Under the pieces are notes generated by a model that saw nothing but the letters and a program-made list of their open reading frames with translations, was not told the DNA's origin and did no database searches. From a virus, in the IMG/VR virus record IMGVR_UViG_3300045968_000078, positions 1 through 20,161 of that record: DNA of 20,161 nucleotides; one strand, given 5' to 3'. Positions 3,365 to 6,827 of this stretch are shown in pieces. Both the position numbers and the translations under genes were made by a program. Position 1 is the stretch's first letter. The number at the start of each line of letters is the position of its first letter.

Positions 3365-3550
3365 ATGCCCAGAGTGAGAATCATTCGGCAAGTGCGTGCA
3401 GCCGAAAAGCCGCTTCTCGAGGCGGACGAACAAACGAAACAGCAAACCGACGTAGAGCGTGCGGCGCCGTCGTGCCGGTTGATATGCGGGCTCTCCTGGG
3501 CTTTGTGGCTCCTGACGACGATCGTGATCTGGGCAGCGTGGGCGCCGTGA
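3365..3550 (+). CDS. Small membrane-anchored protein, unknown function
   Basis: 61 residues beginning one base after the previous stop. The N-terminal 36 residues are charged and soluble. Residues 40-59 form one membrane helix rich in Trp (LSWALWLLTTIVIWAAW), so it is probably a C-tail-anchored or type II protein. The stop overlaps the next start as GTGA. No family recognised. Confidence 0.5.
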   Translation: MPRVRIIRQVRAAEKPLLEADEQTKQQTDVERAAPSCRLICGLSWALWLLTTIVIWAAWAP

Positions 3551-4110
3551 GGACACGGACTCTCGATTCTCTGCGGCCGGTGCAGGAGCTCGCCAGGGAC
3601 AAGCCGCACGGCAACCGCATCAAGTACATGGGCGGATGCCGGTGCCAGGAGTGCAGGCGCGCAAACACGGCATACGAGCGGGAGCGTGCGGCACGGCGCA
3701 GAGCTGGTGAGTGGAACGGCCTCGTTTCGGCGGACGCCGCCCGCAAACACCTGGCTGAACTTCGCTACCAGGGCGTGGGGCGGCGCGCGGTGAACCTCGC
3801 GACAGACGTCTCGGATACGGTGCTGCAGGACATCATTGCCGGGAGAAAGCAGCGGATCCGCGCCCGCACGGCCCGGCTCATATTGGCGGTAGACGCGAAT
3901 GCCGCCCAGGACGGCGCCTATATCTGCGCAAGGCGCACCTGGCGCCAGGTGCACGAGCTACTTACCGAGGGTTTCACGAAGGCCCGGATCTCGGCCGAGA
4001 TCGGCCAGGACGGACGCGCGCTGCAGCTCGGCCGGAAGCGCGTGACGGTTCGAAGCGCCGGCGCGATCGACCGCTTGTGGCGTAGGTACATGACGCCGGC
4101 AGGCGTTTGA
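3547..4110 (+). CDS. Phage protein with GCRCxxC motif and helix-turn-helix-like regions
   Basis: 187 residues from the GTG at 3547, which overlaps the previous stop; an earlier in-frame start at 3472 would bury the upstream gene and is rejected. Residues about 20-45 carry HGNRIKYMGGCRCQECRRAN, a motif found in small phage DNA-binding-like proteins (GCRCxxCR followed by a basic helix, YERERAARRR). Further on, two segments look like helix-turn-helix units: DVSDTVLQDIIAGRKQRIRART (XRE-like) and WRQVHELLTEGFTKARISAEIG. A transcription factor role is inferred. It lies directly upstream of the integration module. Confidence 0.65.
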   Translation: MRTRTLDSLRPVQELARDKPHGNRIKYMGGCRCQECRRANTAYERERAARRRAGEWNGLVSADAARKHLAELRYQGVGRRAVNLATDVSDTVLQDIIAGRKQRIRARTARLILAVDANAAQDGAYICARRTWRQVHELLTEGFTKARISAEIGQDGRALQLGRKRVTVRSAGAIDRLWRRYMTPAGV

Positions 4111-4658
4111 TGACGCAGATCTTCCTCACTGGTGAGCAGCTCGTCGAGCTGACCGGCGCCAAGCAGGCGCGGCGGCAGATTCAATGGCTCACCGACAACG
4201 GGTATCACTTCGACGTCGGCCTGGACGGCCGCCCAAAGGTGTACCTTCGCGACCTGTACGCGAGGCAACTGAAACGAGAAGTACCGGAGCGACCCGACTA
4301 CTCAGGGATAGACAAACCACGGGAGCGACGTGCCCCGGTGAAGCGAACGTCTGACACGGAAGGCCGGGGCGAACGACGGAAGTACTGGCTGCGAGAGAAC
4401 CGGGCATTGATAGCAGCACATGCCAATAAGCGCCGGGCTCTGCGACTGAACGCCACGCCACCCTGGGCAGACCTCGATGCGATCGCTGAGTTTTACCGTG
4501 AAGCGGCCAGACTCACCCGGGAAACCGGGACTCGCCACGTCGTAGACCACATCATTCCGTTGCGAGGCAAGTCTATCTCTGGCCTGCACGTCGAAACGAA
4601 CCTGCGAGTGATTACGGAATCCGAGAACCTGCGAAAGTCGAACCGGTTCGAGCCATGA
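4110..4658 (+). CDS. DUF4224 domain fused to an HNH nuclease domain
   Basis: 182 residues from the ATG at 4110, overlapping the previous TGA by one base. Residues 1-52 match the DUF4224 pattern (IFLTGEQLVELTGAKQARRQIQWL, then DGRPKVYLRD). This is normally a stand-alone protein of about 70 residues encoded just before a phage integrase. A linker follows. Residues 90-180 are an HNH-type nuclease: RRKYWLRENR, TPPWADL, then the metal-binding core with D146-H147, PLRGKSISGLH (H160), N164, and N173 in SENLRKSN. This HNH type is usually found alone or with a Cys-rich N-terminus. The core residues look intact, so catalytic activity is plausible. The stop overlaps the excisionase-like gene by ATGA. 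The job of the fusion is unknown; see findings. Confidence 0.8.
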   Translation: MTQIFLTGEQLVELTGAKQARRQIQWLTDNGYHFDVGLDGRPKVYLRDLYARQLKREVPERPDYSGIDKPRERRAPVKRTSDTEGRGERRKYWLRENRALIAAHANKRRALRLNATPPWADLDAIAEFYREAARLTRETGTRHVVDHIIPLRGKSISGLHVETNLRVITESENLRKSNRFEP

Positions 4659-4831
4659 TGCAGTGGGTGACGCTCAAGAAGTACTGCCAGGACTCCGGCG
4701 AGACGCCTGAGGCGGTCCGGAAACGCCGACAGAAAGGAATCTGGCTTGACGGGCTGCACACCAAGGTCCGTAATCGTCGCCTGTGGGTCAACACCAAGGC
4801 GGCAGAACAATGGGTCTTGAAAGACTCGTGA
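4658..4831 (+). CDS. xis: Excisionase-like protein (recombination directionality factor candidate)
   Basis: 57 residues starting on an ATGA overlap and running 22 bases into the integrase gene. The sequence has the small winged-helix pattern of phage excisionases: WVTLKKYCQDSGETPEAVRKR (HTH), then KGIWLDGLHTKV and LWVNTKAAEQW (wing). Such proteins bend attachment-site DNA and tip the integrase toward excision. It was too short for standard ORF calling but is well supported by context directly before the integrase. A paralogous domain is found in the gene at 5985. Confidence 0.8.
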   Translation: MQWVTLKKYCQDSGETPEAVRKRRQKGIWLDGLHTKVRNRRLWVNTKAAEQWVLKDS

Positions 4832-5997
4832 AGATCGCCGACGGCCTCTACGCACGCTATTACCCGTCGGGGAGACGGGCACTACAGGTGCAGTTCTTCT
4901 ACCGTGGCGCGAGGAACAGGGAGACGCTCAAGGGCCTGGATCCGGAGAACCGGACTCACATCCGGATGGCACGCCATCGGGTCGGCGCGATTCAGGATGC
5001 AATCCGCCGCGATACCTTCGACTACCGGGAGTTCTTTCCGGAGTCACCACGGGCGCGATTCTTCGGCCTGCCGCGGTCCAGGACCGTGAAGGAGATCGGC
5101 ACGTCCTGGCTTGCGGACATGAAACTCTCGAAGCCACACAGCACCTATCGCAGCTACGAGGGCCCGATGGAGCGGTTCGTGTTCCCGGCGATTGGCGCCA
5201 TGAAGGCCGTCGACGTGACGCCCGAGCATATCCGGGATCTGTTCCGGAACGCCGACATCACGCTCAAGACGGCTCGCAACTACTCGATCCCCCTGGTCGG
5301 ACTGTTCCGCCGCGCGATGGGAGATGGCGACATTCGTTCGAATCCGATGGACAGGGTTGTGGTGAAGGAACTGATACCGCTACGCAAGCACACCTCCGAG
5401 TACGAGCCGGATCCGCTGTCCGAAAAGGAGATTGCGGCTTTCCTCGCCGCCTGCAGAAAGCATCGGCCGAAGTGGGTCAACTACTTCACGTTCGCGTTCT
5501 ACACCGGCCTGCGCACGTCGGAGCTGTATGGCCTGCAGTGGTCGGACTGGCGGGACGATCGCCTGGACGTCGTACGCGCCGTCGTCGAGCGCCAGGCGAA
5601 GGGACCGAAGACCCGGAGCAGTCAGCGGACGATCTATGTTTGCCCTGCGGCGGCGGTGGCGATCGAGGCACAACGCACGCAAACCGCGTTCCGGGAGCAC
5701 GTCTTCTGGAACCCGAACACGCAGGGCCCGCTCGTTGACTACGAGGTATCCCAACGGGCGTTCGACTACGTTGGCAAGAAGGCCGGCCTGCGGCGGCGCA
5801 ACCAGTACCAGACCCGGCACACCTACGCGAGCAACCTGTTCCTGGCCGGCGAGAATCCGTTGTTCATCGCCCGCCAGCTCGGTCACAAGGACCTGCAGAT
5901 GCTGCTCCGGACCTATGCCAAGTGGATTCAGGACGAGGATCCCACTGCCACGTACAGGCCCAAGAGTGACTTCGGGAGCAAGCCATGCGCTGGGTGA
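4810..5997 (+). CDS. int: Tyrosine-family phage integrase
   Basis: 395 residues from the ATG at 4810; an in-frame GTG at 4783 is less likely because homologues begin near this Met. It catalyses site-specific recombination between attP and attB. Residues 1-75 are an arm-type DNA-binding domain of the DUF3596 kind (ALQVQFFYRGARNRETLKG, then DTFDYREFFPES). A core-binding SAM-like domain spans about 90-185, and the catalytic domain about 200-375. Visible catalytic residues are R235 in TGLRTSE, K267 in the KGPKTR hairpin, R336-H337 in YQTRHTYAS, H359 in GHKD and the nucleophile Y369 in RTYAKWI. All are intact. It overlaps the excisionase-like gene upstream by 22 bases and the Xis-nuclease gene downstream by 13. 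Confidence 0.95.
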   Translation: MGLERLVKIADGLYARYYPSGRRALQVQFFYRGARNRETLKGLDPENRTHIRMARHRVGAIQDAIRRDTFDYREFFPESPRARFFGLPRSRTVKEIGTSWLADMKLSKPHSTYRSYEGPMERFVFPAIGAMKAVDVTPEHIRDLFRNADITLKTARNYSIPLVGLFRRAMGDGDIRSNPMDRVVVKELIPLRKHTSEYEPDPLSEKEIAAFLAACRKHRPKWVNYFTFAFYTGLRTSELYGLQWSDWRDDRLDVVRAVVERQAKGPKTRSSQRTIYVCPAAAVAIEAQRTQTAFREHVFWNPNTQGPLVDYEVSQRAFDYVGKKAGLRRRNQYQTRHTYASNLFLAGENPLFIARQLGHKDLQMLLRTYAKWIQDEDPTATYRPKSDFGSKPCAG

Positions 5998-6485
5998 AAC
6001 TGTGGCGGTATTGCACCAACCATAAAGATTTGCCGTCATACGTACACCGGCGGGTGAAACGGGGCATCTGGACCGAAGGCATACACACCAAGACCGTGGA
6101 GGGTGAGACGTGGGTCGACCTCGCGGAGGCCGTACCGTGGCTGAAGCGAGAGAAGCGCGCCACGTATGTGTACATCGTCGGTGAGGCCGGCGCTGACAGA
6201 CCGATCAAGATCGGCATTGCCGACAACCTTGAGAAGCGCCTCATTGGATTGCAGATAGGTAATGCCCGCCGGCTGGAGATTCGCCATAGTTTCCTGTTCG
6301 ACTCGGTCAAGCTCGCCCGAGACGCCGAGCTGGCCGCCCATCGACATTTCAAGAACTCGGCGCTCTGTGGGGAGTGGTTTGATATCGATGATGCGGTTGC
6401 GGCCGCCTGGATCACTGCCACGTACGCGTCACGTGGACAGCTTCGGCGCCAAAGGTCCCGGAATGAAGTTGTTTACGATGAATAA
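5985..6485 (+). CDS. Excisionase-like domain fused to a GIY-YIG (T5orf172-type) nuclease domain
   Basis: 166 residues starting inside the end of the integrase gene. Residues 1-54 resemble the small excisionase at 4658 (MRWVKLWRYC; RGIWTEGIHTK against KGIWLDGLHTK; then WVDLAEAVPWL). Residues 60-145 are a GIY-YIG-superfamily domain of the T5orf172/MUG113 type: YVYIVGEAG at 61, IKIGIA at 75-79, R85, LQIGNA, E115, H119 and GEWFDI at 129-134. The positions expected for the catalytic Tyr, Arg and Glu are occupied. A conserved tail (SRGQLRRQRSRN) is basic. It is encoded between integrase and attP, the place usual for excisionase or attachment-associated functions. Whether it cuts DNA is not known. 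Confidence 0.8.
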   Translation: MRWVKLWRYCTNHKDLPSYVHRRVKRGIWTEGIHTKTVEGETWVDLAEAVPWLKREKRATYVYIVGEAGADRPIKIGIADNLEKRLIGLQIGNARRLEIRHSFLFDSVKLARDAELAAHRHFKNSALCGEWFDIDDAVAAAWITATYASRGQLRRQRSRNEVVYDE

Positions 6486-6636
6486 CTTAGAAGAATTTTC
6501 AAAGCTGAGCACGTGGAGGTTCAAGTCCTCTTCTCGGCACCACGTCACTCAAGAGATACAACAGGTTTCGCGCCATTCGAGCGCACCTGATGACGCCCTG
6601 ATACACCCTTCAGTGCCACGTGGACGCCACGTGGCG
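6413..6636. repeat. CACGTGG-family repeats around attP (candidate Int/Xis arm sites)
   Basis: Six copies of CACGT in about 220 bases: GCCACGTACG (6417), TCACGTGGAC (6429), GCACGTGGAG (6509, inside the tRNA-like core), ACCACGTCAC (6539), GCCACGTGGA (6615) and the perfect palindrome CGCCACGTGGCG (6625-6636). They flank the core on both sides, as arm-type integrase sites do. The 13-base string CACTGCCACGTAC occurs at both 5943-5955 and 6413-6425. Function is inferred from position and density. Confidence 0.5.
6504..6542 (+). other. attP core: 3' end of a tRNA gene
   Basis: Bases 6515-6531 form a T-arm: GGAGG, loop TTCAAGT, CCTCT. Bases 6532-6538 (TCTCGGC) are an acceptor 3' strand, followed by discriminator A and CCA (6540-6542). 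No matching 5' half (GCCGAGA plus D-arm) is found upstream, so this is not a complete tRNA gene. Phages whose integrase uses a tRNA as attB carry exactly such a 3' fragment. The acceptor and variable-arm remnant (GCACG-T) are Leu-like, but the isotype is uncertain. It lies 19 bases after the Xis-GIY-YIG gene. Confidence 0.8.
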
Positions 6637-6827
6637 AGTGTCGTGCTGCGTTTGCTCGCTGGCACGCGCCTGTGCAGTAGGCAGGTATTCGAACCGCGCC
6701 AAGCCCCTGAAGCCTCACCACATTCCGCCCGCGAACTGGGACATATGTTTCCCGGATTTCGCGCGATATCCCTTTGTTTCTCCGTTTTTCGGCCGATTTT
6801 ATTTCCCAGTTTTGAGGAGGACTGACC
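6543..6827. promoter_or_regulatory. Non-coding right arm of attP and leader of the accessory genes
   Basis: A 285-base gap without a convincing gene. Its left part carries the CACGTGG repeats. Its right part is A/T-richer, with a weak promoter candidate (TTGTTT at 6774-6779, TTTTAT at 6797-6802, 17-base spacing). It ends in a very strong Shine-Dalgarno, GAGGAGG, at 6814-6820 before the ATG at 6828. A partial T-arm lookalike on the minus strand at about 6690-6705 was rejected. An integration host factor site may be present but none is clear. Confidence 0.4.

Follow-up and report, generated by a model that had tools for sequence, protein, structure and literature searches.

Among the closest described systems is Odn (gp88 of Vibrio phage ICP1), in which a sequence-specific DNA-binding domain of a mobile-element type, 42% identical to that of a satellite's RepA, is joined to a T5orf172 nuclease with a catalytic Glu, and which cuts the satellite origin (PMC8263062); Odn-like proteins, of the RepA_N-T5orf172 make-up, arose repeatedly (PMC10448857). 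A shuffled DNA-binding-plus-nuclease design is also seen in the free-standing homing endonucleases of phages (T5orf172 and HNH types; F-CphI, PMC6083498), which are usually aimed by zinc fingers or AP2 domains. Here we show how nucleases of these same superfamilies carry domains of an integration module instead. Within a 20,161-base IMG/VR virus record (IMGVR_UViG_3300045968_000078, analysed over its full length and called the window hereafter), which its tape-measure gene marks as that of a tailed phage, a DUF4224 domain is fused to an HNH nuclease and an excisionase-type (Xis) domain to a GIY-YIG nuclease of the T5orf172 type, on either side of the integrase gene. While directed nucleases with shuffled DNA-binding domains are known, integration-module DNA-binding domains would be new as the targeting part. 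With a confidence somewhat short of even, we favour reading the two fusions as domain-shuffled, site-directed nucleases of an Odn-like kind, which probably cut the integration modules of other elements.

Four genes, encoding DUF4224-HNH, an unfused Xis1, the integrase and Xis2-GIY-YIG, overlap head to tail on the plus strand between 4110 and 6485, and co-expression of the fusions with the integrase is predicted from these overlaps. The first of them (4110-4658, +) is a single intact open reading frame (ORF) of 182 amino acids. Its residues 5-44 form a DUF4224 winged helix-turn-helix (PF13986, E=1e-15, 57.6 bits, the cut-off being 22), and residues ~104-179 an EndoVII/HNH-type nuclease that matches phrog_26577 (E=1e-24), the score against Pfam HNH being only 12 bits, below the cut-off. 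All expected active-site residues are there (D146, H147, H160, N164, N173 and N178), and the phrog_26577 motifs DH..P, GLH..N and N..K.N are conserved across an alignment of 28 sequences, DUF4224-HNH included. A PDYSGI motif at residues 62-67 resembles the PD[FY]S- or PNF-like tails in which many stand-alone DUF4224 proteins end; since it is retained in the fusion, a whole DUF4224 protein was apparently joined to the HNH part. In domain, length and tail this part is thus like the DUF4224 proteins that adjoin integrases; unlike them, it is fused to an HNH nuclease and separated from the integrase by Xis1, so that the integrase lies one gene downstream and is not the immediate neighbour. The structure model (mean pLDDT, the predicted local distance difference test, of 79) has blocks mostly of 80-98 across the HNH half, for which it yields a high-confidence HNH fold, and gives the DUF4224 part a winged-helix-like order of helix-helix-strand-strand-helix. 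A Foldseek search with this model returned no significant match. Alignments in which DUF4224 rows fell on the HNH part, or GIY rows on the Xis part, were set aside, and the structure models rest on others.

The second fusion, Xis2-GIY-YIG (5985-6485, +; Xis2-GIY for short), is likewise a single intact ORF, of 166 amino acids, and overlaps the end of the integrase gene by 13 nt. Its Xis part (residues 1-58) matches the phrog_2917 excisionases over residues 8-58 (E=7e-10) and is followed, after few linker residues, by a GIY-YIG/T5orf172 part at residues 61-143 (MUG113, PF13455, E=3e-8; T5orf172, PF10544, E=2e-7), in which the expected residues are kept: Y61/Y63, K75-I76-G77, R85, the catalytic Glu E115 and GEWF at 129-132. 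The mean pLDDT of the model of this protein is 71, the N-terminal half being poor; Slx1 GIY-YIG nucleases predominate among the plausible structural matches, none of them significant by E-value (probability at most 0.84, E-values of at least 0.3). As such, both the reality of the fusions and the intact look of the HNH domain, as asserted in an earlier sequence-only reading, are borne out. That reading erred, however, in stating that both accessory proteins of the integrase carry nucleases, as it overlooked Xis1 (4655-4831, +), an unfused protein of 58 amino acids that matches phrog_2917 (E=1e-10) and overlaps the start of the integrase gene by 22 nt. Xis1 thereby fits the pattern of excisionases, or recombination directionality factors, as small stand-alone genes running into the integrase gene; placed after DUF4224-HNH, it occupies the canonical position for xis, before the integrase (395 amino acids, 4810-5997, +; PF00589, E=2e-16; Arm-DNA-bind_2, E=3e-12). 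Both Xis1 and the Xis2 domain belong with the phrog_2917 excisionases that are found beside phrog_1-type integrases. Xis2, though, departs from these as a diverged extra copy that follows the integrase and is fused to a GIY-YIG nuclease. It shares 38% identity with the phage's own Xis1 over 53 residues, a value comparable in kind to the 42% between Odn and the satellite RepA; the tree of Xis domains, with long branches and a support of 0.74, does not separate an internal duplication from a capture of Xis2.

How unusual is this make-up? All readable DUF4224 matches in 399 Pseudomonadota genomes were small stand-alone proteins, mostly with an ORF of ~340-370 amino acids directly 3', and each of the ten such ORFs tested was a tyrosine integrase; the other DUF4224 proteins in IMG/VR were stand-alone in 48 of 48 cases. 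Similarly, 78 of 79 viral relatives of Xis were genes of 57-64 amino acids running into an integrase gene, like Xis1, the remaining one being cut by a contig end. DUF4224 and Xis are therefore normally small, stand-alone partners of integrases, as had been supposed from the sequence, and a search of the literature found no function described for DUF4224. The HNH family, for its part, is common in environmental phages, with at least 566 viral relatives. Among its best 80 members, a set that left out DUF4224-HNH of the window and its identical twin, 54 bear N-terminal zinc knuckles and none DUF4224; in 50 of the records of this set an integrase was present anywhere in six and adjoined the HNH gene in one (L277, see below). 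Zinc fingers are likewise found on 200 of the 229 T5orf172 proteins of a published survey, in which an excisionase domain is unmentioned (PMC10448857). By the domain matches, then, both nuclease families have in this phage an N-terminal domain that is unusual for them and that comes from integration modules. Neither fusion was found in INPHARED, IMG/VR or the 399 genomes, except in a 45.8-kb IMG/VR contig that contains the entire window at 100% identity, and plasmids, searched additionally for Xis2-GIY, yielded no further fusion; these searches used single sequences or few patterns, which miss distant relatives, so that the rarity holds for these collections at that sensitivity. Neither an excisionase-nuclease fusion nor the double fusion was found in the literature searched, in agreement with the earlier remark that such an arrangement is not known to be described.

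Two sets of candidates were rejected. Seven Synechococcus proteins that match 93% of DUF4224-HNH at 28% identity were taken as showing HNH similarity, a DUF4224 domain not being demonstrated in them; they sit between the gp55 and gp47 genes with no annotated integrase nearby. Enterobacterial matches reaching residue 78-93 of Xis2-GIY are not fusions, as they run beyond the Xis stop codon. At 30 T5orf172 loci from genomes, no match to the Xis, integrase or DUF4224 models was seen alongside, the integrase model being a narrow one. Separately, at L003:2283-3290, a larger regulator-like protein includes a T5orf172 domain, and a gene for a tyrosine integrase is ~750 nt away.

Just 3' of Xis2-GIY, at 6509-6542 (+), lies a putative core of the phage attachment site (attP), which corresponds to the 3' end of a tRNA-Leu including its CCA. 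This core and Xis1 were left out of the earlier description of the module, which held as far as the fusions bracketing the integrase are concerned. Of all hexamers in the window, CCACGT clusters most strongly, and 11 of its 21 sites fall within 5948-6634, around this core. The core is flanked, at nearly equal distances of ~100 bp, by two 34-nt repeats in both of which CACGT occurs twice, 11 bp apart: a putative P-arm pair at 6412-6445 (+), inside the last codons of xis2-giy, and a putative P'-arm pair at 6610-6643 (+), 74% identical to the former. A partial third copy (CACTGCCACGTACAGGCC) is found at the 3' end of the integrase gene (5943-5960, +). We read these CACGT-bearing repeats around the core as candidate arm-type sites of the integrase. 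On this reading xis2-giy takes up the P arm of attP, the P-arm repeat falling within its last codons. On L310, an unrelated phage contig, the core segment recurs at 33 of 34 nt beside integrases of its own; these are two tyrosine integrase genes at 52-2181, oppositely oriented, and the tRNA-Leu attP core lies at or inside the beginning of one of them. In the E. coli phage LLS (L071:3852-4726) a gene of unassigned function lies between the integrase and an attP in a tmRNA pseudogene, and cargo between integrase and attachment site thus occurs elsewhere too.

So where would such nucleases be aimed? The sequence shows the domain make-up, the gene order, the place of the putative attP and the intactness of the catalytic residues, whereas DNA binding, cleavage and target are inferred. 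In both fusions an integration-module winged-helix domain, DUF4224 or Xis, replaces the usual targeting domain of a homing-type nuclease, a replacement evident from the comparison with relatives. This domain would take the nuclease to attachment or regulatory sites of elements with related recombination modules, and the nuclease would cut at these sites and so keep competitors out, as Odn cuts satellite origins. For the idea, already put forward from the sequence, that the DNA-binding part directs the nuclease, Odn offers a precedent from experiment (PMC8263062). The unfused Xis1 would still perform the phage's own excision, while Xis2, which differs from it at 62% of positions, perhaps does not recognize the sites of its own phage. 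Because cutting its own attachment site would harm the phage, and because Xis1 is kept, we favour a foreign target, namely a competitor's integration module. Unlike Odn, Xis2-GIY has an excisionase-type domain and not that of a replication initiator, its gene lies in the integrase operon beside the attP of a temperate phage, its target is a predicted one, and a second, unrelated nuclease is similarly fused in the same operon.

Another phage may hold a second integration-module nuclease. On L277, a 28-kb contig, a separate Xis (phrog_9668, 1e-15) is followed within 441-2448 by an integrase, by what looks like a tRNA/tmRNA 3' end (TTCAATTCCCCCCGCCTCCACCA, recognized by eye) and by a protein of the same HNH family. 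The N-terminus of this protein has no family match and scores 21.0 against the Xis profile, compared with at most 15.8 for other tested family members and at most 15.1 for 100 shuffles. It is conceivable, as a tentative generalization, that temperate phages repeatedly join Xis or DUF4224 to homing-type nucleases and so obtain nucleases directed at attachment sites, as weapons or homing devices, with two cases here and L277 as a probable third.

Several observations weigh against aiming at foreign modules, and against its wider form. Proteins of the T5orf172 and HNH types can be inactive. The searches turned up no target element whose specificity matches that of Xis2 or DUF4224, and neither IMG/VR and INPHARED nor the plasmids and genome contigs yielded an element bearing a close relative of Xis2. 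In the collections searched, the double fusion occurs in only one phage lineage. The alignment of the L277 N-terminus to Xis is weak (HHalign probability 21%, E=0.001). Lastly, the protein at L288:2701-3216 combines an HTH_17 domain, a helix-turn-helix of the AlpA/excisionase type, with a nuclease of the same HNH family, and its 44-kb record has no integrase, which indicates that such helix-turn-helix swaps need not concern integration.

The main rival of the foreign-module reading is selfish homing, which we consider rather unlikely. Here the Xis or DUF4224 domain would aim the cut at related integrase-attP modules that lack the gene, repair would copy the gene in, and the carrier would be protected, its own site being interrupted by the gene. 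Homing endonucleases do include the T5orf172 and EndoVII/HNH types, whose DNA-binding domains are shuffled (PMC10448857, PMC6083498), the genes at hand are small and stand-alone and combine a nuclease with a modular DNA-binding domain, and xis2-giy lies within the P arm. Furthermore, the sequence CACTGCCACGTAC, present at the 3' end of the integrase gene (5943) and near that of xis2-giy (6413), nearly brackets the Xis-GIY unit, and the GC content at third codon positions is lower in the nuclease segments than in the DNA-binding ones (0.67 versus 0.77, Fisher P=0.04). However, this difference is a weak sign of a separate origin, and the repeats are also explained as arm-type sites of the integrase, with a third copy beyond the core. 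Moreover, unlike free-standing homing endonucleases, the fusions overlap the integrase operon, and no empty-site relative was found, the only close integrase-attP relative being the identical contig; from their tight overlap with the integrase gene, and from the full length of the accessory domains, the fusions seem to be integrated in the operon.

A role in the phage's own cycle, in which Xis2 and DUF4224 would bind its own attachment sites or the integrase promoter and the nuclease would nick or remove attP, attL or excised DNA to set direction or timing, seems improbable. Such a role would suit the position of both fusions in the integrase operon beside attP, and Xis-type proteins bind attachment-site DNA and can regulate promoters (Apl, PMC7498355); yet cutting its own sites would be costly to the phage, and the relatives of Xis and DUF4224 work without nucleases. 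Two further suggestions of the sequence-only reading, that attB is cut or that DNA is broken near an attachment site to favour integration, are not supported by direct evidence and share this difficulty, as cutting the phage's own sites would be self-destructive unless the specificity differs; competitor exclusion and homing, which it also proposed, are both possible. Also quite improbable is that the nuclease folds do not cut and serve as extra DNA-binding or dimerisation parts, which would make the fusions additional excisionases or regulators. While nuclease activity is here predicted from the sequence, with the Pfam HNH match below its cut-off, the conservation of the expected catalytic residues in both fusions, the confidently predicted HNH fold and the lead of Slx1 nucleases among the structural matches of Xis2-GIY, although none is significant, speak for enzymes.

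Modification-dependent, type IV-like restriction, after the manner of the winged-helix (wH) wH-HNH and wH-GIY-YIG endonucleases that depend on N6-methyladenine (m6A) and read Dam methylation, has the same combination of a winged helix with these nuclease classes in its favour (PMC11037411), and is nevertheless very unlikely: the helix-turn-helix domains here match the DUF4224 and Xis families and no others, in a comparison made by family match, no evidence of modification sensing was seen, and PADLOC gave no convincing match. An assembly or frame artefact is extremely unlikely, as each fusion is one uninterrupted frame, starts and stops overlap in register and the domain ends are preserved, even if the sole second copy, the identical 45.8-kb contig, possibly comes from the same sample and is thus not independent evidence against it.

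Elsewhere in the window, an ORF of the phrog_1590 family with unassigned function (3472-4110, +) lies directly 5' of DUF4224-HNH; its stop overlaps the start of that gene by 1 nt, and it is possibly a member of this operon. A BRCT-domain protein at 71-628 (PF00533, 4e-5; phrog_3989, 2e-56) resembles the end of NAD-dependent DNA ligases.

If the fusions do cut the integration modules of other elements, these modules would themselves be targets in the conflict between mobile elements, with Xis-type domains as aiming devices for nucleases. The principle of Odn, which takes its DNA-binding domain from an essential protein of the rival, would then extend from replication origins to recombination sites. 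Compact nucleases of new specificity would also become available from such fusions, and prophages would compete by attacking a rival's attachment site, a mode of competition that is directly testable through cleavage of attachment-site DNA.

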